Part shown: positions 32,739-50,821 of the stretch, piece by piece | Numbering within the stretch: the stretch's first letter is position 1 | Layout of the letters: each line of letters opens with the position of its first letter | Assembly: GCA_937928595.1 (NCBI GenBank) | Contig: CALGJV010000029.1 | Span: 1 to 58,378 of the forward strand | DNA: 58,378 nt | From: an uncultured Phycisphaerae bacterium | GTDB taxonomy: Bacteria; Planctomycetota; Phycisphaerae; UBA1845; Fen-1342 | Direction: 5' to 3' | Translations under genes and position numbers: made by a program | Notes under the pieces: generated by a model | What the model saw: only the letters and a program-made list of their open reading frames with translations | What the model was told of the DNA's origin: nothing | The model's database searches: none

Positions 32739-35249
32739 ATGCGCACCAGTCGTTGGGTCGTCGGGGGTTTGGCGCTGGGCACGCTCGTCACCGCGGCGAC
32801 CGCCGCTCCGCCGCCGCACGAGTCGGCCTTCGGAATCGGCGGGCCCCCGTTCTCCCATTGGTTGCACGCCCGCAAGCCCGACCTCTGGCGGGAGGGCGAC
32901 ATGCACCTCGCCCTGCTGCGTGAGTCAGGCGCAACTTGGGCGCGCCAGGACTTCTGGTGGTCGCTCGTGGAGCCCGAGCCCGGCCGCTGGGAGTGGGACG
33001 ACTTCGATCGCGCCGTCGCCACCTACGAGCGCCACGGCGTGCGGCTGCTCGGCATCCTGTGCTACGCCGCCGTGTGGTCCGGCGGCGCGAGCCCGGCCAC
33101 CGACGCCGACCGGGACGCGTTCGGCCGCTACGTCTTCGAGATGGTGCGGCGCTACCGCGGCCGCGTCGCCGCGTGGGAGGTGTGGAACGAGCCGAACATC
33201 CAGCCGTTCTGGTCGCCCACGCCCGACGCCGCGCTCTACGCGCAACTGCTCCGCGTGGCGTACACGCAGGCCAAGGCCGCGGACCCGGACTGCGTGATCG
33301 TCGGCGGTGTGACGGCCGGGCCGGACGCCGACTTCCTCCGCGGCATGTACGCCCACGGCGCGGCCGGCCACTTCGACGTGCTGAGCTACCACAACTACGG
33401 CCAGTACAACGACGGCGACATCGAACGCCCGGCCGTCGCGGCCCTGCGGGCGGTCTTGCGCGCGCACGGCGACGGCGACAAGCCCATCTGGCAGACCGAG
33501 ACCGGCTTCTACACCGGGCCCGTCGGGCTGCCCGAGGCGGATCAGGCCGCGCGGCTCGTGCGGTACGCCGTCGGGCTGCGGGCCCTGGGCATCGCGCGGC
33601 AGTTTCAGCTCACGCTGGCCGACTGGGCCGCCGAGGCTGAAGCGCCGGACCCGAGCATGTACCGCGGCCTGCTCCGCGTCGATTACACGCCCAAGCGCGC
33701 CTGGGCGGCGCACCAGACGCTCTGCCGCCGACTGGACACCGCCGATTTCGTGGCGGCGTTCCGCCCGGCCCCAGGCGTGCGCGGCTTTCTGTTCGAGGTG
33801 GCGCACGGGGGGCCGGTCCTCGTGCTGTGGCGCGCCTGGGACGCACCGGCCGCCCCGGCGCAGCTCGACCTGGGCGTACCCGCCGCGTGCATCCAGTCGC
33901 TTACGGGCGAGCTGCGCGTCCTGCGGAGCGCCGCCGGGACCTACGAGGTGCCGATCGGCCGCGAGCCGGTCTACGTGCTTTCCCCTGGGCCCCCGGTGCT
34001 GCGGCAGCGCCTCGTCCAATGGCCCGAGGAAACGCGGCTCGCACGCGAGCCGGGCGCGGGTTTCGGTGTCACCGTCGAGAACCCGACGACGACCCCGCTC
34101 CGACTGGCCGTCTATCCGCACCCCGACACCGCGGAGCCCTGCGCCCGCGTCGAGATTCCGCCCGGCGCGCGGCCGACGGTCCGCGTGGAGCCGCCCGACG
34201 CCGACCGGCTGCCCCTCGGACGCTCCGAGTGGTACTGGACGCTCACCGACCCCGACGGCGGGCGCTTCGCGGCCGGCTTCGGGGTGGTCGAAGTCGCCGC
34301 GCCGCTGCGGCTCGCGTTCGGGAAACTGGCCAGGTTGGACCCCGCCCGACCGGCGATTCCCGTGCGCGTGGACTACGCCGGGAGCCGCGCGACCGAGGCC
34401 ACGGTGGAGTTGCGGCAGAACGGCACGCCGACCGGACCGCCGGTGACGCTCGCGCTGGCGCCGGCCGCCACGACCGAAGCGCTGCTGCCGCTCCGTCTCG
34501 CGGATTTCGCGCCGGGTCGGCCGGTGTCGCTGTCGGCGACACTCGCGGCGGCGGACCTGCGGCTGGAGGTCGCGGCCCAGCGCCCGCTGCTGCGCTGCCC
34601 GCCAGCCCCGGCGACGACGGCCGTGGATGGCGACCTGGGCGAATGGGCGACCCGCCCGCCGTTGATCCGTCCGGAACTGCTGCGCTGGGAATACGTCGGC
34701 ACCGCGACCGCGCCGGCGTTGGACGATCTGGCGGTGACGGCCTGGGCGGGTTGGGACGCACGGGGGTTGTGGCTAGCGGTGCGCGTGCGAGACGATCGCG
34801 TGGTGCTACCGCGGGCGCGCTCGGTCTGGGACTGGGATTCCATTCAGGTCGGGCTCGACCTTGGCAGTGACGCCGAGCCGAATCGCCCGTACGACGACAA
34901 CGACCTCGAGATCGAGCTCGGCGCGCGGGCCGACGGCCCGCCGTGGTGCTACCTGGGCGCTTGTCCGCCGGGTTGGCCGCAGGCCGATCTGTCGGACAAG
35001 CTGCGCGGCGCGGTGCGGGCGGATGTCGACGCGGGTTGGGTTGATTACGAGCTGCTCGTCCCGGCGGAGCTGATGGTCTCCGTGGCGCCGCTGGAGGCCG
35101 GTACGGTGCTCGGGTTCTCGCTGCTGGTCAACGACAACGACGGCGCCGGCCGCGCGGGCTGGCAGGAACTCACGCCGGGCATCGGGCTCGGCAAGGTGCC
35201 GGCGGAGTTCGCGTGGTTGTGGTTGCAGCCGGGACCGCGTCAGCCATAG
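32739..35249 (+). CDS. Exported clan-A-like glycoside hydrolase with C-terminal CBM9-type domain
   Basis: The 836-residue protein has a signal peptide (cleavage likely after TAATAA) and a TIM-barrel resembling GH39/GH5-type hydrolases. The proposed acid/base Glu151 is in EVWNEPN and the nucleophile Glu254 in WQTETGFYT. Beta-sandwich segments follow, then a C-terminal CBM9-like carbohydrate-binding domain (about 625-830, starting AVDGDLGEWATRPPL). It should cleave a beta-linked glycan outside the cytoplasm; substrate unknown. ACAGGAGG precedes the ATG. It lies convergent to the BMC regulator gene and could feed sugars to that pathway. Confidence 0.78.
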   Translation: MRTSRWVVGGLALGTLVTAATAAPPPHESAFGIGGPPFSHWLHARKPDLWREGDMHLALLRESGATWARQDFWWSLVEPEPGRWEWDDFDRAVATYERHGVRLLGILCYAAVWSGGASPATDADRDAFGRYVFEMVRRYRGRVAAWEVWNEPNIQPFWSPTPDAALYAQLLRVAYTQAKAADPDCVIVGGVTAGPDADFLRGMYAHGAAGHFDVLSYHNYGQYNDGDIERPAVAALRAVLRAHGDGDKPIWQTETGFYTGPVGLPEADQAARLVRYAVGLRALGIARQFQLTLADWAAEAEAPDPSMYRGLLRVDYTPKRAWAAHQTLCRRLDTADFVAAFRPAPGVRGFLFEVAHGGPVLVLWRAWDAPAAPAQLDLGVPAACIQSLTGELRVLRSAAGTYEVPIGREPVYVLSPGPPVLRQRLVQWPEETRLAREPGAGFGVTVENPTTTPLRLAVYPHPDTAEPCARVEIPPGARPTVRVEPPDADRLPLGRSEWYWTLTDPDGGRFAAGFGVVEVAAPLRLAFGKLARLDPARPAIPVRVDYAGSRATEATVELRQNGTPTGPPVTLALAPAATTEALLPLRLADFAPGRPVSLSATLAAADLRLEVAAQRPLLRCPPAPATTAVDGDLGEWATRPPLIRPELLRWEYVGTATAPALDDLAVTAWAGWDARGLWLAVRVRDDRVVLPRARSVWDWDSIQVGLDLGSDAEPNRPYDDNDLEIELGARADGPPWCYLGACPPGWPQADLSDKLRGAVRADVDAGWVDYELLVPAELMVSVAPLEAGTVLGFSLLVNDNDGAGRAGWQELTPGIGLGKVPAEFAWLWLQPGPRQP

Positions 35250-35269: not shown

Positions 35270-36031
35270 CTACTCCGCGACCCGCACGGACACGCCCAAC
35301 GCGACCAGTTGCGCCCGCGCGTCCGCCGTGATCCCGGCGTCGGTCAGCAACGCGTGGACTTCGTGCAGCCGCGCGAGCGGCACGACCGAGCGCACGCCGA
35401 ACTTGCTGCTGTCCACGAGCAGGTAGCGCTCGGCCGCCAGGTCCAGCATCCGGCGCTTGACCCGGGCCTGCGCATCGTCGACCTCGCTGAGCCCGCGCTC
35501 GAAGTCGACGCCTTTGCTGGACAAGAAGACTTTCTGGATGTTGAGCCGGTCCAACGCGTGCTCGGCCAGCGACCCGACCCACGAGCCGGACGGACGGTCC
35601 AGCGTGCCGCCGGTCGCGATGACGCGGATGTGCGTGCGGGCCGCCAGCCGAACCGTCGCCGGCAGCGAGTTCGTCACCACCGTCAGCGGCAAGTCCGGCA
35701 GCGCCAGCGCCAGCTCATGCACCGTCGAGCTCGCGTCGAGCGCGATTACGTCGCCGGGGGCCACCAGCCCCACGGCCAACCGGGCGATCGCCACCTTCGC
35801 CTCGTGATTGGCCGACTGCCGGGCTTCGAACGACAGGTCGCGGCTGGCCTCCGGCACGAGCACCGCCCCGCCGTGGGTCCGCAGCAGTCGGCCCGCCCGC
35901 GCCAGCTTGTCGAGGTCGCGCCGGATCGTCTCCTCGGTCACGCGAAGATCCCTTGCCAGCACGGCGACCCGAGCCCCGCCGGAATCTGTAAGTCTTTTTA
36001 GAATCTCAGTTTGACGCTGGTGTGCGAGCAC
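35270..36031 (-). CDS. DeoR-family transcriptional regulator of the BMC locus
   Basis: The 253-residue protein has the DeoR N-terminal helix-turn-helix (HQRQTEILKRLTDSGGARVA, VTEETIRRDLDKLARAG, THGGAV) and a sugar-phosphate-sensing DeoR C-terminal domain (LDASSTVHELA, VVTNS, GGTLDR, SSKGVDFERGLSEVD, VDSSKFG). The family usually represses and is released by a phosphosugar. GTG at 36,031 has a GGGAG site and gives the family N terminus. Divergent from the BMC operon, so it is the likely local regulator. Confidence 0.93.
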   Translation of the reverse strand: MLAHQRQTEILKRLTDSGGARVAVLARDLRVTEETIRRDLDKLARAGRLLRTHGGAVLVPEASRDLSFEARQSANHEAKVAIARLAVGLVAPGDVIALDASSTVHELALALPDLPLTVVTNSLPATVRLAARTHIRVIATGGTLDRPSGSWVGSLAEHALDRLNIQKVFLSSKGVDFERGLSEVDDAQARVKRRMLDLAAERYLLVDSSKFGVRSVVPLARLHEVHALLTDAGITADARAQLVALGVSVRVAE

Positions 36032-36125
36032 GACGTGCTCCCGGCACCGGGCCGCGTTCCGACGGTCGTTGCAGGGACCGCTTCGACCGAACGCCGACTC
36101 AACCTGTGAGTTTCTGCGATCCGAT

Positions 36126-36171
36126 GCTTGACTATGTTGGATTATGTTTGTATTTCTGTGAACCGTCAAGC
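36126..36171 (+). promoter_or_regulatory. BMC operon promoter with inverted and direct repeats
   Basis: TTGACT (36,128-36,133) and TATTTC (36,151-36,156) are 17 bp apart in an AT-rich island. A perfect 7-bp inverted repeat, GCTTGAC (36,126-36,132) and GTCAAGC (36,165-36,171), brackets the promoter from -35 to about +1. TATGTT is repeated 10 bp apart (36,133 and 36,143). These are candidate operators for the divergent DeoR protein. Confidence 0.6.
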
Positions 36172-36201
36172 GCCGTTTCAGGCCCCCTGGAGCGCATCCG
36201 C

Positions 36202-36903
36202 GTGACGCGAATCGCCAGCCCGCCGGCCGTCGACCACGACCGCATCGCGCGGATCGTCGCGGAGGTGCTGCGCGAGCGGCTGGATCGGCCGGCCCAGCGG
36301 GGGCCGCGGTCGCCGCTGGTGGTCAACATTTCGGTCCGCCACATGCACATCACGCCGCAGCACCTGGAGATCCTGTTCGGTGCCGGGGCGACGCTGACGC
36401 CGTTGCGTCCGCTGTACCAGGAGGGTCAGTTCGCTGCGGAACAGACGGTGGACCTGGTCGGGCCGAAGCGGCGGATGCTTCAGAACGTGCGGATCCTCGG
36501 GCCGACGCGCCCGCAGTCGCAGATCGAACTGGCCTTCTCCGACGCGATCCTGCTCGGGATCGACGTGCCGGTCCGGATGAGCGGGAACGTCGACGGGACG
36601 CCGGGCTGCATCGTGATGGGTCCGAAGGGGCACATTGTGCTGGACCGGGGCGTGATCCGGGCCCAGCGGCACGTGCATCTTTCGACCGCGGACGCGGAGT
36701 ACTTTGGCGTGCGGACGGGCGACGCGCTCGACCTGGTGGTCGAACATCCGACCTGCGGCGTGACGTTCGGCGGCGTGATCGCGCGCGTCGACCCGCGGTT
36801 CAAGCTGGAGGTGCATCTCGATTCGGACGAGGGCAACGCCTGCGACCTGCCGGGCGCGACGGGCGTGCGGCTGGTGCGCGCGGGCGGACCGCGCGCCGGC
36901 TGA
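36202..36903 (+). CDS. pduL: PduL-type phosphotransacylase
   Basis: The 233-residue protein has an N-terminal amphipathic helix typical of an encapsulation peptide (DHDRIARIVAEVLRERL). Two PduL domains follow, with metal-binding His47/His49 (VRHMHIT), Glu80, His157/His159 (RHVHLST) and His205 (LEVHLDSDEGNA). It converts acyl-CoA and phosphate to acyl-phosphate and CoA inside the BMC, recycling CoA. GTG 36,202 has a CTGGAGC site. The ATG at 36,124 lies upstream of the predicted transcription start, so it is unlikely. Confidence 0.93.
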   Translation: MTRIASPPAVDHDRIARIVAEVLRERLDRPAQRGPRSPLVVNISVRHMHITPQHLEILFGAGATLTPLRPLYQEGQFAAEQTVDLVGPKRRMLQNVRILGPTRPQSQIELAFSDAILLGIDVPVRMSGNVDGTPGCIVMGPKGHIVLDRGVIRAQRHVHLSTADAEYFGVRTGDALDLVVEHPTCGVTFGGVIARVDPRFKLEVHLDSDEGNACDLPGATGVRLVRAGGPRAG

Positions 36904-36976: not shown

Positions 36977-37270
36977 ATGGCAGCGATGGCAGCACTGGGC
37001 ATGATCGAGACGCGCGGGCTGGTCGCGCTCTTCGAGGCGACCGACGCCGCGCTCAAGGCCGCGAGCGTCGAAATGCTCGGATGGAAGAAGGTCGGGCGCG
37101 GTCTCGTCACGGCGTTCCTCGCCGGCGAGGTGGCCGCGGTGAAGTCGGCCGTGGCGGCCGGCGAGTCGGCCGGCGCCAAGGTCGGCGAGGTCGTGGCGAC
37201 GCACATCATCCCGCGGCCGCACGATGAGCTGAGCGGTCTGCTTCCGGCGAAGGCGAAGAAGGCGAAGTAG
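36977..37270 (+). CDS. BMC-H shell protein 1
   Basis: A 97-residue single BMC-domain protein (ALGMIETRGLVALFEATDAA, then GLVTAFLAGEVAAVKSAVAAG and the VVATHIIPRPH end). Six copies form a hexameric shell tile. A Lys/Ala-rich tail (PAKAKKAK) extends past the domain. It is the first of three BMC-H paralogues in the operon and closest to the one at 38,871. Confidence 0.96.
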   Translation: MAAMAALGMIETRGLVALFEATDAALKAASVEMLGWKKVGRGLVTAFLAGEVAAVKSAVAAGESAGAKVGEVVATHIIPRPHDELSGLLPAKAKKAK

Positions 37271-37639: not shown

Positions 37640-38824
37640 GTGAACGTCCTCGTCGTCAACATCGGCAGCACGTCGTTCAAGTTCCGCCTGCTGGACATGG
37701 CGGACGAGCGGCTGCTCGCGCGCGGCGGCGTCGAGGGCGTGGGCAAGCCGGCCGCCCAGGTCACGCTGCAAGCCGGCAGCGCCCCGGCGGCGACCGCGGC
37801 GCGCCCCATCGCCTCGCAGGCCGCGGCGGTGGAATGGTGTCTGGCGGAGCTGGCGGCGCGGGGCCTGCAGTTCGACGCGGTCGGTTTCAAGGCGGTGCAC
37901 GGCGGCGACCTGCCGGAGGCCGTCCGCGTCACGCCCGACGTGCTGGCGGTCATGGACGAGTTCGCGGACGCCGCCCCCGCGCACAACCCCGCGTACGTGG
38001 CCGCGATGCGGGCGTTCGAGCAGCAGCGGCCGGAGCTGCCGCGGGTGGCGGTGTTCGAAACGGGCTTCCACCGGACGGTCCCCGCGGCGCGGGCCTGGTA
38101 CGCGGTGCCGCGCGAATGGGCCGCGCGGTACGGCGTGCGGCGGTACGGTTTTCACGGCGCGTCGCACCGCTACATCGCGACGCGCGTCGCGGAGCGCTTC
38201 GGCCGGTACGACCTGCGGATCATCTCGTGCCACCTGGGCGGCAGCAGCTCGCTGTGCGCGATCCGCGGGCAGGAGAGCATGGCGAACAGCCTGGGCATGA
38301 CGCCGCAGGCGGGACTGCCGCAGAACAACCGCGTGGGCGACTTCGACCCCTACGCGCTGCTCGTGCTGAAGCGCCGCACGGGTCGCGACCTGGAGACGCT
38401 GCTGGCCCAGGCGGCCCGCGAGGGGGGCCTGCTCGGCCTGTCCGGCGTCAGCAACGAAATGCCGGAAATCCTCGCGGCCGCGGCCCGCGGCGACGGGCGG
38501 GCGGCGCTGGCCGTCGACGTGTTCGTGGAATCGGCCCGGCACTACCTCGGCGCGTACGTGGTGGCGCTGGGCGGGCTCGACGTACTGGTGTTCACAGGCG
38601 GAATCGGCGAGCGGTCGGCGGAAATCCGGCGGCGGGTGTGCGCGAATCTGGAGTTTCTGGGGATCCGGCTGGATGCGGCCCGCAACGAGGCCGCCCGCGG
38701 CGAGGCGACCGTGTCGCCCGACGGGGCCCCGGTGACGGTGCTGGTGCTGCCGACGAACGAGGAACTGGTGGTCGCGCGTCAGACGGTAGCCGTACTGGCG
38801 GCCGCGGCGCCGCGACGTAACTGA
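37640..38824 (+). CDS. Acetate-kinase-like acyl kinase of the BMC locus
   Basis: The 394-residue ASKHA-fold protein matches acetate kinase along its length: Asn7 in VNIGSTSFKF, AVHGGD, FETGFH, GFHGASHRY with His172, CHLGG, NRVGDFD with Arg231, GGIGERS and the C-terminal PTNEELVVAR. Compared by eye with Methanosarcina acetate kinase, catalytic Arg91 is Lys84 here, Asp148 is Glu140 and Asn211 is Gly201, while the His, Arg241 and Glu384 equivalents are kept. It should make ATP from the acyl-phosphate delivered by PduL, perhaps with a substrate other than acetyl-phosphate. GTG start at 37,640. Confidence 0.88.
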   Translation: MNVLVVNIGSTSFKFRLLDMADERLLARGGVEGVGKPAAQVTLQAGSAPAATAARPIASQAAAVEWCLAELAARGLQFDAVGFKAVHGGDLPEAVRVTPDVLAVMDEFADAAPAHNPAYVAAMRAFEQQRPELPRVAVFETGFHRTVPAARAWYAVPREWAARYGVRRYGFHGASHRYIATRVAERFGRYDLRIISCHLGGSSSLCAIRGQESMANSLGMTPQAGLPQNNRVGDFDPYALLVLKRRTGRDLETLLAQAAREGGLLGLSGVSNEMPEILAAAARGDGRAALAVDVFVESARHYLGAYVVALGGLDVLVFTGGIGERSAEIRRRVCANLEFLGIRLDAARNEAARGEATVSPDGAPVTVLVLPTNEELVVARQTVAVLAAAAPRRN

Positions 38825-38870
38825 ACGGATGCGCCGGGCGCCCGGCGGGCCGCCCGGCCAGGAGTCGGTC

Positions 38871-39149
38871 ATGGCGAAGATGGCTCTGGGACTGATCGAG
38901 ACGCGCGGCATGGTGCCGATCGTGGAGGCGACGGATGTCGCGCTGAAGGCGGCGAACGTCTCGCTGGCCGGCGTGCGGACGGCCGGCTCCGGGCTGGTGA
39001 GCGTGGCGCTGGCGGGCGACGTGGCGGCCGTGCGGGCGGCGACGGAGGCCGGCGCGGCGGCGGCGGCGCGGCTCGGCGAGGTCGTGTCGGTGGAAGTGCT
39101 GTCGCGGCCGCATGACGAGCTGGACAAGCTGATCCCGGCGAAGGGCTAG
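38871..39149 (+). CDS. BMC-H shell protein 3
   Basis: A 92-residue BMC-H protein (ALGLIETRGMVPIVEATDVA, SGLVSVALAGDVAAVRAA, VEVLSRPHDELDKLIP). It is a paralogue of shell protein 1 with the same PHDEL..LIPAK end. CCAGGAG precedes the ATG by 7 bases. Confidence 0.96.
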   Translation: MAKMALGLIETRGMVPIVEATDVALKAANVSLAGVRTAGSGLVSVALAGDVAAVRAATEAGAAAAARLGEVVSVEVLSRPHDELDKLIPAKG

Positions 39150-39174: not shown

Positions 39175-39504
39175 ATGTTCATCGGCAAAGTCACCGGGCA
39201 CGTGGTGACCACGCAGAAAGAGGCCGCGATGGCCGAAGCCCGGCTGCTCGTGGTCGAGGCCTACAGCGCATCGGGGCCGGCGGCGGCGGGTCTCAAGGCG
39301 ACGGGCCGCGTGCTCGTGGCCGTGGACTCGCTGGGGGCGGGCATCGGCGAGTACGTGCTCGTGACGCAGGGCAGTTCGGCGCGGCTGACGGAGCGCACGA
39401 AGACGATGCCCGTCGATGCGGTCGTAATCGGCATCGTGGACACGGTGCGCATGCAGGATCGCGTGCTGAAGCGTGCGGACGGGACGTTGGAGAAAGGCGA
39501 GTAG
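39175..39504 (+). CDS. BMC-P pentameric vertex protein 1 (EutN/CcmL family)
   Basis: A 109-residue EutN/CcmL-type protein: MFIGKVTGHVVTTQK at the start, LVAVDSLGAGIGEYVLVTQG in the middle and AVVIGIVDTV near the end. Five copies cap shell vertices. It is the most canonical of the three BMC-P proteins here. Confidence 0.95.
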   Translation: MFIGKVTGHVVTTQKEAAMAEARLLVVEAYSASGPAAAGLKATGRVLVAVDSLGAGIGEYVLVTQGSSARLTERTKTMPVDAVVIGIVDTVRMQDRVLKRADGTLEKGE

Positions 39505-41047: not shown

Positions 41048-41317
41048 ATGCTCCTGGGACGTGTGGTCGGACACGGCACGGCGACGGTCAAGCACCGCTC
41101 GCTGCACGGCGCGAAGCTGCTGCTCGTGCAGCCGCTGCGCTCGCTCACGACGGAGCCGGTGCTCGCGCTGGACCGGCTCGGCGCCGCGCCGGGCGACCGA
41201 GTGCTGATCAGCAGCGACGGGCTCGGCGCGCGGCAGCTCGTGGACGACCCGACCTCGCCGGCCCGCTGGCTCGTGATCGGCCTCGTGGACCCCGGACAGG
41301 ACGTGACGGTCGCATGA
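41048..41317 (+). CDS. BMC-P pentameric vertex protein 2
   Basis: An 89-residue EutN/CcmL-type protein (MLLGRVVGHGTATVKHRSL, APGDRVLISSDG, WLVIGLVDPGQDVTV). It overlaps the next gene's ATG by four bases (ATGA), coupling it to the RpiB-like protein. Confidence 0.93.
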   Translation: MLLGRVVGHGTATVKHRSLHGAKLLLVQPLRSLTTEPVLALDRLGAAPGDRVLISSDGLGARQLVDDPTSPARWLVIGLVDPGQDVTVA

Positions 41318-42006
41318 CGCGGACGCTGGTGACGGTCAGGACGCTCGTCGAGCAGGTGCGGACGCACGGGCGCATCGAGCTGCCCGCCGACGCGCTGATC
41401 ACCCCGGCGGCGCGGGACTGGCTGCGCGGCACGACGCTCCGCGTCGAGACCGCCCCCGCGCCGGCGGCGCCCGCCCCGACCGGCCCGGTCGTCTACTTCG
41501 TCGGCGACGCGCGCCGGCCGGACGTGCAGACGCTGCTGCCGGCGCTGGAGCGGAGCTACCCGCGGCTGCGCCTCCTGCCGTGCAACGGGCACCTGGCCGG
41601 GCTGCTTTCCGCCGTGCAGGCGGCGTGCGCGGGGTTGAGCGAGTGCACCCAACGGCGCGGCGTGGTGGTGGTCAGCGACGGGGCCCCGGTGTGCTGCGTG
41701 GCGAACCGGTTCGCCGGCGTCCGCGCGGCGATCCTCGCAACGCCGTCGGCGCTCTACGGGCTCATCCGCGAGCTGGGCGTGAACCTGCTGATCCTCGAGC
41801 GGACGCGCCTGTCGCTGGCCCAGATCCGCGCGGCCATCACCACCTTCGTGGCCGGCAAGCCCGACGTGGCCCCGGAAATCGCGGCCGCGCTCGCCGCCGC
41901 GGGCGGAATACCGGCCCCGGCCGCCGCCCCCAGCGCGGCGGCCGCGACGCCGGGCAACGGCGCGTGCCCGTGCAGCCGGGCGTGCGCGAGCGGAGGAACG
42001 CACTGA
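41314..42006 (+). CDS. RpiB-like protein with cysteine-rich tail
   Basis: In this 230-residue protein, residues about 58-185 resemble the ribose-5-phosphate isomerase B fold (RGVVVVSDGAP, ANRFAGVRAAILATPSALYG, LGVNLLILERTRLSL). The catalytic Cys of the isomerase CGTG motif is replaced by Ser121-Asp-Gly, and the usual N-terminal Asp-His pair is not evident. Before it is an LITPAARDWLRGTTLRV segment of the kind seen in several BMC-associated proteins. After it comes an Ala/Pro linker and the tail CPCSRAC (Cys218, 220, 224). Ordinary isomerase activity is unlikely; a structural, regulatory or metal-binding role in the BMC is possible. It overlaps both neighbouring BMC-P genes. Confidence 0.7.
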   Translation: MTRTLVTVRTLVEQVRTHGRIELPADALITPAARDWLRGTTLRVETAPAPAAPAPTGPVVYFVGDARRPDVQTLLPALERSYPRLRLLPCNGHLAGLLSAVQAACAGLSECTQRRGVVVVSDGAPVCCVANRFAGVRAAILATPSALYGLIRELGVNLLILERTRLSLAQIRAAITTFVAGKPDVAPEIAAALAAAGGIPAPAAAPSAAAATPGNGACPCSRACASGGTH

Positions 42007-42308
42007 TGCGCGTTGGCGAAGTCATCGGGACCGTGACGCTTTCGCAGGCCCTCCCGGAGCTCCCGGCGGGGCAGTGGCTGCTGGCCCGGCCGCTGCCGCT
42101 GGACACGCTGGTCGCGGGGGCCGCGTCGGCGGTCGAACCGGTGGTCGCGTTCGACGAGCTGCGCGCCGGGCTCGGGGCCCGCGTGGGCCTGTCGGAGGGA
42201 CGCGAGGCAGCGATGCCGTTTCATCCTCGGCCCGTACCGATCGACGTGTACTGCGCGGCGGTGCTTGACGCGGTGGTCGCGGAGCGGGCGGAAGCGGCCG
42301 GGGCGTGA
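42006..42308 (+). CDS. BMC-P pentameric vertex protein 3
   Basis: A 100-residue divergent EutN/CcmL-type protein (MRVGEVIGTVTLSQALPELP, GQWLLARPL, VAFDELRAGLGARVGLSEG) with a C-terminal helix instead of the usual IGIVD end. The ATG overlaps the previous stop by one base. Confidence 0.88.
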   Translation: MRVGEVIGTVTLSQALPELPAGQWLLARPLPLDTLVAGAASAVEPVVAFDELRAGLGARVGLSEGREAAMPFHPRPVPIDVYCAAVLDAVVAERAEAAGA

Positions 42309-42341: not shown

Positions 42342-43505
42342 GTGATCGTGGAAAAGACGCTGGATACGAAGCTGGCGAAGATCAAGGCGGATCCGGGCTG
42401 CCGCGAGTTCATCATCGCGGACGCGAAGGACGCGGACATGGCGTTCGGCATCGCCGCGCCGGGGCGCAGCCCCGAGATGCACGCGCAGGAAGGCCGCTTC
42501 CGGAGCTTGGCCGAGTACCGCGAGTGCATTCGGCAGGTCGTGCGGCAGGGCGTCGTCGACATCATGCTCATGTCCGCCCACACGAACTCGATCCTGACGC
42601 TGGAGGAACGGCTGTTCGAAAATTCTCCGGTGACGCCCGCCGCCCGCGCGAACGACACGACCGACATTCACGTCGTCCGCGGCGGCGTCTACGCGACGCA
42701 GCCCTCCTGCCCGTTCCAGAGCACGACGATCGACCACATCCAGTGCGGGCACATCGACTGCCGGCCGGAAGAGCGGCACGCCGGCGCGAACCTCGGGCTG
42801 TACAGCGTGACCTTCAATAACGATGTGGAGCTGGACCGGCGGACGCTCGAAGCATACAAGGCGTTCCGGCTGGAGGCGGAGCGGAAGGGCTTCCGGCATT
42901 TCCTCGAGGTGTTCGACCCGAACGCGCCGCGCGCGGCGCTCGCCCCCGACAAGCTGGGCGGGTTCATCAACGACATGATCGTGCGGTCGCTGGCGGGCGT
43001 GCCCGCGGCGGGACGGCCGCTGTTTCTCAAGGTCGTCTACCACGGGCCGAAGTTCATGGAGGAGCTCGTGCACTACGACCCGACGCTGGTCGTGGGCGTG
43101 CTGGGCGGCTCGGCGGGCACGACGTACGACGCGTTCAAGCTCATCGCCGAGGCGCAGAAGCACGGCGCGCGGGTCGCGCTCTTCGGCCGCAAGATCAACA
43201 ACGCCGAGCACCAGCTCGCGTTCATCACGATGCTGCGGAAGATCGTGGACGGCGAGGTGTCGCCCGAGGAAGCGGTGCGGGCCTACCACGGCGTGCTCCA
43301 GGCGCTGAAGATCCCGCCGCATCGCCCGCTCGAGGACGATCTGAAGCTCACCGACGCCGCGATGAGCTACGGCGGCACGCGGACGAGCGTGGTCGTGCCG
43401 CGCACCGACGGGCGCGCGGCGCCGCCGCGGCCGGAGCCGGCGAGGATGAGCCCGGCGGAGCGGCTGGCGTACTACCGGCAGCGGCTGCGCGGAGTGGGCG
43501 GATGA
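42342..43505 (+). CDS. TIM-barrel class I aldolase-like protein of the BMC locus
   Basis: The 387-residue protein of no family I can name with certainty looks like a DeoC/LacD/DhnA-type class I aldolase barrel. Strands are ADMAFGIAAPG, GVVDIMLMSAHTNS, LGLYSVTFNNDVEL and RHFLEVFDPN. Lys230 in PLFLKVVYHGP is placed where the Schiff-base lysine is expected, followed by GVLGGSAGTTYDAF as a phosphate-binding loop and VALFGRKINNAEHQL. It would supply the aldehyde to the dehydrogenase by cleaving a phosphosugar, replacing the class II aldolase of characterised planctomycete BMCs. Start GTG at 42,342. The last ~50 residues are Pro/Arg-rich and end YYRQRLRGVGG, perhaps a C-terminal targeting peptide. 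Confidence 0.7.
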   Translation: MIVEKTLDTKLAKIKADPGCREFIIADAKDADMAFGIAAPGRSPEMHAQEGRFRSLAEYRECIRQVVRQGVVDIMLMSAHTNSILTLEERLFENSPVTPAARANDTTDIHVVRGGVYATQPSCPFQSTTIDHIQCGHIDCRPEERHAGANLGLYSVTFNNDVELDRRTLEAYKAFRLEAERKGFRHFLEVFDPNAPRAALAPDKLGGFINDMIVRSLAGVPAAGRPLFLKVVYHGPKFMEELVHYDPTLVVGVLGGSAGTTYDAFKLIAEAQKHGARVALFGRKINNAEHQLAFITMLRKIVDGEVSPEEAVRAYHGVLQALKIPPHRPLEDDLKLTDAAMSYGGTRTSVVVPRTDGRAAPPRPEPARMSPAERLAYYRQRLRGVGG

Positions 43506-43592: not shown

Positions 43593-44900
43593 ATGACGCC
43601 CGGTGAGCGATTGCAGCGGATTGCGGACTGCGGCGTGGTCGGCGCCGGCGGGGCCGGTTTCCCCACGCACGCGAAGCTCAAGTCCGCGGCGGAGACGATC
43701 ATCCTCAATGCAGCCGAATGCGAGCCGCTGCTGCACAAGGACAAGGAACTGCTGCGGCATCACGGGCCCGCGGTGCTCGAGGGGCTGCGGATTGCGGCCG
43801 GGCTGGTCGGGGCGAAGGATGTCGCGATCGGCATCAAGGGCAAGTACGCCGACGTCATCGCGCAGCTGGCGGCGGCCCTGCCGGCGGGCATGCGGATCGT
43901 GCCCCTGTCGGACAGCTACCCGAGCGGCGACGAGTTCATCCTGGTGCGCGACGTGACCGGCCGGATCGTGCCGCCGGGTGGCATCCCGCTGCTGGTCGGG
44001 TGCGTCGTGATCAACGTCGAGACGGCGCTCAACATCGCGCTGGATCGGCCGGTGACCGAGACGTACCTGACGATCGCGGGCGCCGTGCGGACGCCGTGCA
44101 CGGTGGGCGTGCCGGTGGGGATCACGGCGGCGGAGGCGTTGGCGCTGGCCGGCGGGGCGACCGTGCCGGAGCCGCGGATCCTCAGCGGCGGCGTGATGAT
44201 GGGCCGGCTGGTGGGGCCGGACGAGCCGTTGACGAAGACCTGCGGCGGGCTGATCGTGCTGGGCCGCGACCACTTCGTCGTCCGCCGCTACGAGCAGAGC
44301 TGGCGACAGATCGCCCAGATCGGCGCCAGTGCGTGCGATCAGTGCTCGTTCTGCACCGAGCTGTGCCCGCGGTACCTGCTGGGGCACCCGATCGAACCGC
44401 ACAAGGCGATGCGGTCGCTGGGCTTCGTCGAGAGCCGCGAGCCGCAGGTGCTCGGGACGCAGTTCTGCTGCGAGTGCAACCTGTGCACGATGATCGCCTG
44501 CCCCGAGGACCTCGACCCCAAGAACGTCTGCACGCACAACAAGCGGGCGCTGGCCGCGGCGGGGAAGAAGTGGTCCGTCGAGGCCCATCCGTACCGGGCC
44601 GAACTGCTGCTGGACAACCGGCGCGTGCCGATCAGCCGGCTCATCAACAAGCTCGGGCTGCGGGCGTTCCGCAACGAGGGGCCGCTGACGACGCACGACT
44701 ACCGGCCGGCGCGCGTGCGCATCCCGCTGAAGCAGCACATCGGGGCGGCGGCCCGGCCGGTCGTGGCGGACGGGGCCCGGGTGCGCCGAGGCGAACGGAT
44801 CGGCGTGCCGCCAGACGGCGCGCTGGGTGCGACGGTGCACGCCAGCATCGACGGCGTGTGCCGCGTGGCGGCGGACGGGGTGGAGATTGTCGCCGAATGA
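43593..44900 (+). CDS. pduS: PduS-like Fe-S flavoprotein (RnfC-type)
   Basis: The 435-residue protein resembles PduS: an N-terminal RnfC/NuoF-like nucleotide- and flavin-binding part (GVVGAGGAGFPTHAKL, AAECEPLLHKDKELL), an SLBB-type segment near residue 165, two [4Fe-4S] motifs (Cys248-251-254-258 in CDQCSFCTELCP; Cys292/293-295-298-303 in CCECNLCTMIACP) and a C-terminal barrel-sandwich domain. PduS moves electrons from NADH and in the Pdu system serves cobalamin reduction. No B12 enzyme is in this locus, so here it may reoxidise NADH made by the aldehyde dehydrogenase and pass electrons to the BMC-T next door. Confidence 0.9.
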   Translation: MTPGERLQRIADCGVVGAGGAGFPTHAKLKSAAETIILNAAECEPLLHKDKELLRHHGPAVLEGLRIAAGLVGAKDVAIGIKGKYADVIAQLAAALPAGMRIVPLSDSYPSGDEFILVRDVTGRIVPPGGIPLLVGCVVINVETALNIALDRPVTETYLTIAGAVRTPCTVGVPVGITAAEALALAGGATVPEPRILSGGVMMGRLVGPDEPLTKTCGGLIVLGRDHFVVRRYEQSWRQIAQIGASACDQCSFCTELCPRYLLGHPIEPHKAMRSLGFVESREPQVLGTQFCCECNLCTMIACPEDLDPKNVCTHNKRALAAAGKKWSVEAHPYRAELLLDNRRVPISRLINKLGLRAFRNEGPLTTHDYRPARVRIPLKQHIGAAARPVVADGARVRRGERIGVPPDGALGATVHASIDGVCRVAADGVEIVAE

Positions 44901-44931: not shown

Positions 44932-45507
44932 ATGCTCGAAGCCGTGGGCCTGATCGAGACGACCAGCGTCGGGCTGGGCATGGCGGCGCAGGACGCCATG
45001 CTCAAGGCGGGGGCCGTGCGGGTCGTGCTGGCGCGGACGATCTGCTCGGGCAAGTATATCGTGGCGGTGACGGGACCTCTGGCGGAGGTGACGGCCGCGG
45101 TGGATGCGGGCGTGGCGGCGCTGCCGGAGGGGCTGATCGATCACGCGGTGATCGCGAAGATTCACGCGGCGGTGTTCCAGGCGCTGGGGCAGGCGGTGGA
45201 GCTGCACGTGCCGCTGACCGGGGCCGCGGCGGCGGGGCCGAAGGCGCTGGGGGTCGTCGAGACGTACTCGGGGACGAGCGTGCTGGAGGCGGCCGACGCG
45301 GCGGCGAAGGCGGCGGCGGTGACGCTGCTGAAGATTCACCTCGCGATGGCGCTGGGTGGCAAGGGTTATCTGATGATGGCCGGCTCGGTGACGGACGTGC
45401 AGGCGGCGGTGGCGGCGGCCGCGGCGGTCGTGCGGGCGAAGGGGTTGCTGGTGTCGGCGGTGACGATCCCGGGGCCGTCACGGGAGCTGTTCGCGGAGTA
45501 CATCTGA
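44932..45507 (+). CDS. pduT: BMC-T shell protein with PduT-type Fe-S site
   Basis: The 191-residue protein has two fused BMC domains (LEAVGLIETTSVGLGMAAQD and ALGVVETYSGTSVLEAADAA). Cys38 in RTICSGKYIV matches the PduT cysteine that holds a [4Fe-4S] cluster in the trimer pore. The trimer would carry electrons across the shell, working with the PduS-like protein. ATG 44,932 has a GGAG site 7 bases upstream. It is the last gene of the operon and its end overlaps the convergent gene by 30 bases. Confidence 0.93.
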   Translation: MLEAVGLIETTSVGLGMAAQDAMLKAGAVRVVLARTICSGKYIVAVTGPLAEVTAAVDAGVAALPEGLIDHAVIAKIHAAVFQALGQAVELHVPLTGAAAAGPKALGVVETYSGTSVLEAADAAAKAAAVTLLKIHLAMALGGKGYLMMAGSVTDVQAAVAAAAAVVRAKGLLVSAVTIPGPSRELFAEYI

Positions 45508-48486: not shown

Positions 48487-48571
48487 GCGCCAGGCGCATC
48501 CCCCCGCGGTGCTTCCGGCGCGATCCGTCACGCGCGTCGCGAGCGGTGCTCCGGTGAGGCCGGGCCGGCGG

Positions 48572-48577
48572 TATAAT
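48572..48577 (+). promoter_or_regulatory. Consensus -10 box
   Basis: A perfect TATAAT stands in GC-rich DNA 69 bases before the next start. No good -35 is present 16-18 bp upstream, so only the -10 is supported. Confidence 0.4.
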
Positions 48578-48640
48578 CGACCCCGGCGATCCGTTCGCTC
48601 GCGCCGGCCGCGGCGACGCGACGCCCCTGGGAGGCGAATG

Positions 48641-50821
48641 ATGCGTTTCGCGTGGTACCCGCGTGGCGCGGCGGATGCGCGCTGCCTGCTGCTGGGCCTC
48701 GTGCTCGCGCTCACCCCGTACGCGCCGGCCGATCCGCCGCTGGCCGGTGTCAACGCCGGAGCGCCGCTCTGGGCCGGCAACATCCTGTTCACGGACCAGC
48801 TCGCGGCGGACATGGAGGCGGTCGGCTGCCGGGCGGTGCGCATCAACTTCCGCCTCGACGGCAACGCCGCCTGGACCCCGGCGCACCTCGCGAAGTACGA
48901 CCAGATCATCGCCAACGCCCGCAACCACGGGCTGGCGGTGCTGGGCCTGATCTGCTACGAGGCCGTGCCGGGCGGACAGTCCGATTGGAACCAGAACTAC
49001 AACACGACGGGCCTCAACGCGTACATCACGACGTTCGCCAACACGGCCTATCTGCTCATCAACCGCTACAAGGCGGACGTGAAGCGCTGGGAGCTGTGGA
49101 ACGAGCCGGACTGCTGGTCCGTCCCGCCCGAGTCCAATCCGCTCCAGCCGGGTTGCTTCTACATCTGGCCGAAGAACTACGCGAACCTGCTGGCCGAGAC
49201 GTACAAGGCGTGCCTTACGCAGGGCGGCGCGAACTTCTTCTCCGCCAACGGCCTGTCGCTGTGCACCGGCGGCCTGTTCGCGCACGACATCGGCGGGTCG
49301 TTCAGCACGTCGATGGCGTACATGAACAACGTGTACAACCAGAGCGCCGTCTGGAACGCGTTCGAGGCCGTGGCCGGGCGCCGCTACCCGTGGGACCTGT
49401 TCGGCTACCACTTCTACCTGAACCAGGGCGAGCCCGTCAGCATCTCCGAGCTGGCCGCCTACTTCAACAACGTCCGCTACTGGAAAAGCCTCCGCAACGA
49501 CCCCGCGCCGATCCTCGTCACGGAATTCGGCTGGAACACGCAGGCCGTCAGCCCCGCCTTGCAGGCCGCCAACCTCCGTGACACCTACAACTGGCTGCGC
49601 ACCCAGCCCGACATCCAGACCGCCTACTGGTATCAGTGGAACGACGACGACGGCGGCTGGGGGCTCGTCTCCGGCAGCGGCCCGAAACCGGCGTACTACG
49701 AGTTCCAGTCCCAGTGCGGCCCACCCGTCGCGCCGGTCGCGAGCTTCTCCGCCGCGCCCCTGACCGGCGAAGCTCCCCTGACGGTGCAGTTCACGAGCAC
49801 CTCCACCGGCGTCATCACGACCTACCACTGGACGTTCGGCGACGGCGGCACGAGCGCAGCCCCGAACCCGATCCACACCTACGCGACGCGCGGCCGGTAC
49901 ACCGTCACGCTGACCGTGACCGGGCCGGGCGGCAACGACACGGCCACCCGCCCCGACTACATCGTCGTCACCGGCCGGGCCGACTTCGACCAGGACGGCG
50001 ACGTCGATCTGGCGGATTTTGCCCGCTTCGCGCGCTGTTTCGGCGGCAGCGGCAACACGACGCCCCCGCCCGGCTGCGACTGTCCGGGCAGCGGCGCCTC
50101 GCCGGCCGCCGCGACCGGGCAGCTCGCGGCCAACCTCGGTGGGCTGTCGGCGGCGATTTCGTCGTTCGATCTGCTCCAGGCCCGCATCGGCACGCTCGAG
50201 GCCGGCGGTTTCCACGAGGCGACGCCCGGCGGCATCCCTGGTGGCCTCGCCGACCTGACCGACGGCGTGGCGGGCGGCACGGCCGAAGCGGTGCTGGCGG
50301 ATTACGCCCGGCCGTCGCTCCAGGTGCGATACGAGCTCGTGCCGCCGACGAGCTTGGCCGAGATCCGCGTGTTCGCGGCCAACGGCGACGGGCGGGTGTT
50401 CCAGAACTACGACGTGGAGGTCTCGCCGGTCGGCGATGCGGCGTTCTATCCGCTGTTGCGGGACGTGCGGGCCGGGGTTCCGGGAGCCGTGAACAGCGGG
50501 CAGTGGGGTGCGTCGCTGACGCGGATCGCACCGACCGTTCCGGGCCCGATCGCGGTCAACATCGACGCGCTGCGGTTCGTGTTCTACAACGTCTCGACGG
50601 TCTCGCCGGCCGGAACCTTCTGGGACGCGTGGGATGCGGGGGAGCCGCGCGACGTGGACGGCGCGCCGCGGGCCTACGTGGCCACCATCCTCAAGGAAAT
50701 CGACGTCTTCGAGTGGACCGGGCCGCTGCCGGCGGTGAACTGCGTCGATCTCGACGGCGACCGCGACGCGGACCTCGCGGATTTCGGCGCTTTGGTCGGG
50801 GAGTGGTCGGGACCGGGCTGA
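48641..50821 (+). CDS. Exported PKD/dockerin multidomain putative glycoside hydrolase
   Basis: The 726-residue protein has an N-terminal signal (RCLLLGLVLALTPYAPA) and a clan-A-like TIM barrel with Glu155 in ELWNEPD and a second Glu in APILVTEFGWNT. A PKD domain follows (about 370-450; YHWTFGDGGTSAAPNPIHTY), then a dockerin-like loop (DFDQDGDVDLADFARFARCF). Next is the beta-rich module shared with the genes at 30,344 and 31,876 (IRVFAANGDGRVFQNYDVEV ... ATILKEIDVF), and a final dockerin-like loop (DLDGDRDADLADFGALVGEW). ATG 48,641 has GGGAGG six bases upstream; ATG 48,638 is three bases from it. Probably a surface or secreted glycan-acting enzyme. Confidence 0.8.
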   Translation: MRFAWYPRGAADARCLLLGLVLALTPYAPADPPLAGVNAGAPLWAGNILFTDQLAADMEAVGCRAVRINFRLDGNAAWTPAHLAKYDQIIANARNHGLAVLGLICYEAVPGGQSDWNQNYNTTGLNAYITTFANTAYLLINRYKADVKRWELWNEPDCWSVPPESNPLQPGCFYIWPKNYANLLAETYKACLTQGGANFFSANGLSLCTGGLFAHDIGGSFSTSMAYMNNVYNQSAVWNAFEAVAGRRYPWDLFGYHFYLNQGEPVSISELAAYFNNVRYWKSLRNDPAPILVTEFGWNTQAVSPALQAANLRDTYNWLRTQPDIQTAYWYQWNDDDGGWGLVSGSGPKPAYYEFQSQCGPPVAPVASFSAAPLTGEAPLTVQFTSTSTGVITTYHWTFGDGGTSAAPNPIHTYATRGRYTVTLTVTGPGGNDTATRPDYIVVTGRADFDQDGDVDLADFARFARCFGGSGNTTPPPGCDCPGSGASPAAATGQLAANLGGLSAAISSFDLLQARIGTLEAGGFHEATPGGIPGGLADLTDGVAGGTAEAVLADYARPSLQVRYELVPPTSLAEIRVFAANGDGRVFQNYDVEVSPVGDAAFYPLLRDVRAGVPGAVNSGQWGASLTRIAPTVPGPIAVNIDALRFVFYNVSTVSPAGTFWDAWDAGEPRDVDGAPRAYVATILKEIDVFEWTGPLPAVNCVDLDGDRDADLADFGALVGEWSGPG

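Follow-up and report, generated by a model that had tools for sequence, protein, structure and literature searches.

The protein encoded at 42342-43505 on the forward strand, here called ALDO, most likely represents an uncharacterised class I aldolase family linked to the sugar-degrading microcompartments of planctomycetes, as judged from its sequence relatives and predicted structure. It was found in a DNA stretch of 58,378 nucleotides, referred to as the window. The best overall explanation, which we regard as reasonably probable, is a family of ketose-phosphate aldolases that serves PVM-type compartments beside the class II enzyme; its catalysis, substrate, encapsulation and electron route are parts of this explanation that we infer.

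The open reading frame is confirmed (387 aa, GTG start). Among the stretches of the genome collection that match its peptide patterns, at least 571 encode relatives, and the existence of these hundreds of relatives identifies ALDO as a real gene. Positions K230, G255, G256 and G259 do not vary among 65 aligned relatives or among six homologues from rhizobia and Vibrio; D27, E189, K230, G255, G256, G282 and R283 are invariant across the members of the microcompartment (BMC) clade and the rhizobial/Vibrio members. Established families do not capture the protein. No Pfam family matches it, and PF01791 (DeoC/LacD, which includes DeoC) is unmatched at both E<=0.01 and E<=1. No NCBIfam family covers it; weak C-terminal matches point to ADH synthase (far below the cut-off), LsrF-type thiolase and archaeal fructose-bisphosphate aldolase (FBPA). 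In sequence searches of the PDB, the single protein gave no match and its profile gave just chance matches (E>0.3). Elsewhere in the genome, beyond the window, an FbaB-type and a DeoC-type aldolase are encoded separately; aligning the ALDO profile to these single sequences with hhalign gave no informative result.

Table 1. Operon genes and ALDO features in the window, by position.
Feature	Position	Strand	Basis
DeoR/GlpR-type regulator, divergent from the operon	35270..36169	-	
PduL phosphate propanoyltransferase, true start probably further in	36022..36903	+	
BMC-H shell protein	36977..37270	+	
Acetate/propionate kinase (AckA)	37640..38824	+	
BMC-H shell protein	38829..39149	+	
BMC-P vertex protein	39175..39504	+	
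CoA-acylating aldehyde dehydrogenase (AldDH, EutE/PduP type) with N-terminal encapsulation-type helix	39544..41007	+	
BMC-P vertex protein	41048..41293	+	
RpiB/LacAB-like protein, match below Pfam cut-off	41314..42006	+	
BMC-P vertex protein	42006..42308	+	
Class I aldolase-like protein ALDO, 387 aa	42342..43505	+	ORF, relatives, conservation, predicted fold
Codon of Glu189, strand 5	42906..42908	+	Invariant; opposite E. coli YihT Glu159 in most pairwise alignments
Codon of Lys230, predicted Schiff-base lysine, barrel strand 6	43029..43031	+	No variation among 65 relatives and 6 rhizobial/Vibrio homologues; strand 229-231
GGSAG phosphate loop (G255-G256-S-A-G259), after strand 7	43104..43118	+	Conservation, model
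C-terminal tail 342-387, disordered linker and helix 371-385	43365..43502	+	In BMC-clade homologues, absent from non-BMC ones
PduS/RnfC-like electron-transfer protein	43593..44900	+	
BMC-T shell protein, two BMC domains, PduT-like	44932..45507	+	

The window's operon contains the shared core of the PVM-type microcompartment described in Planctopirus limnophila (Axen 2014 PMC4207490; Sutter 2021 PMC8217296), and in PVM order: DeoR, PduL, AckA, AldDH, BMC-H and three BMC-P. ALDO lies between the third BMC-P and PduS/RnfC, followed by BMC-T (Table 1). Lactate/malate dehydrogenase is absent from this operon and from the locus of the nearest relative (L002); PduS and BMC-T are present instead. A PF01791 aldolase is likewise absent from the window's locus, and the RpiB-like protein matches PF02502 at 22.3 bits against a cut-off of 24.7. 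RpiB-like proteins stand between shell genes across PVM loci, including the one in the likely P. limnophila genome, where the predicted protein (L234:11413-12270, reverse strand) starts with an encapsulation-type helix (STELVDQIVRNVLAQLHSR). On either side of the operon, at 32739-35249 and 48509-50821, are possible polysaccharide-degrading genes, with weak GH10/GH39 and CBM9 matches and a GH5 cellulase with a PKD domain.

The link to microcompartments extends over the phylum. In a sample of 392 Planctomycetota genomes, ALDO is present in 31 and absent from 361; BMC-P genes occur in 30 of the 31 carriers and 93 of the 361 non-carriers (Fisher P about 1e-15, kinship ignored). In 24 genomes ALDO is unlinked to BMC genes or its contig is too short to show a link; 23 of them still have BMC-P. 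The 24th, from Calditrichota, has a BMC-H/AldDH/AckA/class II aldolase locus, and its ALDO is directly followed by an AldDH with an encapsulation-type N-terminus. This Calditrichota cluster (L047:2524-5985), away from shell genes, also contains a class II ketose-bisphosphate-type aldolase, identified by eye.

The preliminary description held that this barrel protein replaces the class II aldolase of the characterised planctomycete compartment. The claim is only partly right. Neither the window's operon nor the 97.9%-complete genome assembly contains a PF00596 class II aldolase, and ALDO is the sole aldehyde source encoded in the operon. As a general statement it is not supported. In 17 of the 31 carriers, no more than about 3 kb separates ALDO from a class II gene upstream on the same strand; another 13 have that gene elsewhere in the genome, and the window's genome alone has none. 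Most related PVM-type loci hold both enzymes together, and the usual Planctomycetota order is DeoR, PduL, BMC-H, AckA, BMC-P, AldDH, BMC-P, RpiB-like, BMC-P, class II aldolase, often lactate/malate dehydrogenase, and ALDO. ALDO normally works beside the class II aldolase, not instead of it, and these organelles therefore probably handle a second sugar phosphate.

The genealogy of the window's layout points the same way. The window and its nearest kin (L002-L005), which share the PduS/BMC-T layout, form one clade (support 100/97) nested in the tree among loci whose operon includes the class II gene, and all four nearest-kin genomes retain a class II aldolase outside the shell operon. The class II gene is therefore best read as having moved out of the operon in this clade. 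In the complete L002 chromosome and the L004 genome it stands with L-rhamnose isomerase and rhamnulokinase, and both encoded enzymes resemble the in-operon copies in keeping an encapsulation-type helix at the C-terminus (FENLVQSITAHVVDVLRRQ; YEELVTRITAEVLEALRRRG). These rhamnose operons lie at L199:6184-9900 and L201:268-3790, both on the reverse strand; in the complete genome the tailed enzyme is encoded about 570 kb from the shell operon, as cargo in trans. In L002-L005, whose operons lack the class II aldolase and lactate/malate dehydrogenase, ALDO is followed by PduS and, where the contig reaches, by BMC-T. This arrangement is confined to a single clade and possibly reflects one switch of the NADH-recycling route. 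In the window's genome no class II gene and no close RhaI were found, which may be due to true loss or an assembly gap.

The converse arrangement also exists. Three nearly complete genomes (G344, G283 and G321; loci L234-L236) encode class II aldolase and lactate/malate dehydrogenase in their PVM loci and have no ALDO anywhere. One of them, G321, is presumably Planctopirus limnophila DSM 3776; if so, the characterised fucose/rhamnose pathway can do without ALDO.

Homologues outside microcompartments provide the strongest functional clue. They are encoded on plasmids of Rhizobiaceae, Vibrio and others, with 41-50% identity over residues 7-341, and are called "hypothetical protein" where annotated. 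No shell genes lie beside the rhizobial/Vibrio homologues in the stretches inspected. A sugar or dihydroxyacetone kinase (PfkB, FGGY, ADP-dependent or DhaKL) occurs in 10/10 annotated non-BMC neighbourhoods inspected, a polyol dehydrogenase, alcohol dehydrogenase or GlpD-like gene in 9/10, and an ABC sugar transporter together with an SDR, alcohol dehydrogenase or GlpD-like gene in nearly all; in Vibrio, an aldehyde dehydrogenase adjoins the ALDO homologue. We infer from this layout a route from polyol to ketose to ketose phosphate, and on to dihydroxyacetone phosphate (DHAP) and an aldehyde. A rhizobial tagatose operon was considered as the source of the homologues and dropped, since the matches include no record from S. 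meliloti.

Against this background, ALDO might still be an isofunctional class I fuculose/rhamnulose-1-phosphate aldolase that makes lactaldehyde and took over from the class II enzyme. Such a takeover, which is the replacement of the preliminary description minus its new substrate, would suit the shared operon position, the retained AldDH, PduL and AckA, and the missing class II gene in the window's genome. It is nevertheless unlikely, given that the two enzymes coexist in nearly all carriers, that the class II enzyme persists in the nearest kin (in two cases within rhamnose operons), and that the non-BMC homologues adjoin PfkB/FGGY/ADP-dependent kinases and polyol dehydrogenases, not rhamnose/fucose genes.

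The predicted structure supports assignment to the class I aldolases. An AlphaFold model built from 65 relatives (mean pLDDT 86.6) is a (beta/alpha)8 barrel with K230 on strand 6 (229-231), followed by a linker of low confidence (342-360) and a helix at the C-terminus (371-385). In the class I aldolase superfamily, the Schiff-base lysine sits on strand 6. Foldseek and VIA-align comparisons with the PDB place class I aldolases at the top (Z 20-23): MJ0400 ADH synthase is the best match (23.2), followed by LsrF (22.4), archaeal FBPA (21.8), LacD (21.1) and YihT (20.9). Identity to characterised aldolases is about 12-17%. In alignments with E. coli YihT, Glu159 pairs with E189 in most and G252-R253 with G282-R283 in all. 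K230 falls 1-2 residues off the YihT/LsrF lysine in pairwise sequence alignments (about 14% identity, within alignment error), so the match of K230 rests on its strand position. Barrel and strand-6 lysine together would place ALDO in the superfamily, as far as model and sequence allow. The class I-like barrel, the placed Lys230 and the GGSAG loop of the preliminary description are accordingly all borne out, the lysine being invariant in both BMC and non-BMC branches. Of the proteins that it proposed for comparison, LacD and the DhnA group are among the fold matches, the DhnA group with the closest folds; DeoC is not among the fold matches listed, an absence to which no weight is given.

The same folds leave room for a related Schiff-base enzyme other than an aldolase, for instance an LsrF-type thiolase that passes an acyl group to CoA. 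LsrF scores less than 1 Z unit below the best match and the operon runs on CoA intermediates; yet true aldolases match the fold equally well or better, and the non-BMC neighbourhoods resemble ketose-phosphate catabolism without CoA enzymes, which makes this quite improbable, slightly more so than the takeover. A cytosolic housekeeping aldolase of the fructose-bisphosphate type, in the operon by chance, is the least probable reading: it would explain the likeness to archaeal FBPA and class I FBA and the carriers with ALDO away from BMC genes, but the window's genome already has an FbaB-type aldolase and even unlinked ALDO is strongly tied to BMC genomes.

The C-terminal tail sets the BMC-clade proteins apart. 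It consists of a variable linker and a terminal helix with the consensus PDFxxMTxxERLAYHxxRL, found also in proteins encoded away from the shell operon. BMC-clade proteins have 376-431 aa and non-BMC homologues 330-343 aa; the tail is absent from 11/11 of the latter. All tailed proteins form a single clade, so the tail possibly arose once. The helix differs in type from those of AldDH and the class II aldolase, and its hydrophobic moment is 0.18 in the window's protein and 0.34-0.48 in others; with so low a value in the window's helix, encapsulation is no more than a possibility. The predicted helix fits a compartment address or a partner-binding helix. The earlier view of a long Pro/Arg-rich tail is right as to the tail in the BMC clade; the Pro/Arg richness belongs to the linker of this one sequence, and what relatives share is the terminal helix.

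In the proposed mechanism, ALDO would cleave a phosphorylated ketose via Lys230 to DHAP and a short aldehyde. With its extra C-terminal helix it would serve the PVM-type compartment by supplying this aldehyde to the CoA-acylating AldDH, whose product would pass to PduL and acetate kinase. Usually it would act next to the class II fuculose/rhamnulose-phosphate aldolase, and it probably broadens the range of substrates. In the operon of the window's clade, the genes for class II aldolase and lactate/malate dehydrogenase would have been lost, leaving ALDO as the only encoded aldehyde source there, and PduS and BMC-T probably take over NADH re-oxidation.

The suggestion that the substrate, and hence the aldehyde, may be new is supported to the extent that the substrate plausibly differs from fuculose/rhamnulose-1-phosphate. 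A link to fucose or rhamnose isomerases, tested in 67 genomes, gave no substrate clue: PF02952 occurs in few carriers, mostly as weak matches, and RhaI in few. The window's own genome has a distant L-fucose isomerase-like gene (L230:10319-12241, reverse strand; PF02952, E 3e-29); it is only partly FucI-like (72 bits against an equivalog cut-off of 775), and no kinase or aldolase was recognised beside it. As a tentative extension, many Planctomycetota PVM compartments might run two chemically different aldolases: the class II enzyme for deoxy-hexulose-1-phosphates and the new class I family for some other ketose phosphate, perhaps one derived from a polyol. The class I enzyme of the window's lineage would then be the sole aldehyde source, with a different aldehyde oxidised and electrons exported through PduS/BMC-T.

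Microcompartments with an aldehyde dehydrogenase and no recognised aldehyde-making enzyme are common, and an unnamed class I aldolase family is now linked to the PVM type. Until now the PVM locus has been understood as a fucose/rhamnose system with one aldolase; in many planctomycetes it probably includes a second entry reaction. The gene for the class II enzyme can lie away from the shell operon while the protein keeps its encapsulation-type tail. The transporter-kinase operons of the non-BMC relatives can reveal the substrate.

Among known systems, the DhnA group (MJ0400 ADH synthase, archaeal class I FBPA and LsrF) shares with ALDO the strand-6 lysine, the GG loop after strand 7 and the GR on strand 8; ALDO differs in its low identity (12-17%), long insertions and C-terminal tail. 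YihT, a sulfofructose-1-phosphate aldolase, and LacD resemble ALDO in fold (Z about 21), whereas identity is about 14% and the ALDO neighbourhood lacks sulfoglycolysis and lac genes. Rhizobial and Vibrio plasmid homologues (e.g. WP_276121489.1) are about 48% identical over 7-341 and conserve D27, E189, K230, G255, G256 and R283, but lack the tail and lie in transporter-kinase polyol/ketose operons. The SPU (sugar phosphate utilisation) microcompartment also combines a class I-type aldolase and an RpiB-like protein with AldDH, PduL and PduS; its aldolase is of the DeoC type (PF01791), unlike ALDO, and the window's RpiB-like protein stays below the PF02502 cut-off. The PVM-type compartment of P. 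limnophila shares the DeoR regulator, PduL, BMC-H, acetate kinase, BMC-P, AldDH and the RpiB-like gene in the same order; by contrast, the signature class II aldolase and the lactate/malate dehydrogenase are missing from the window, which adds ALDO, PduS and BMC-T.
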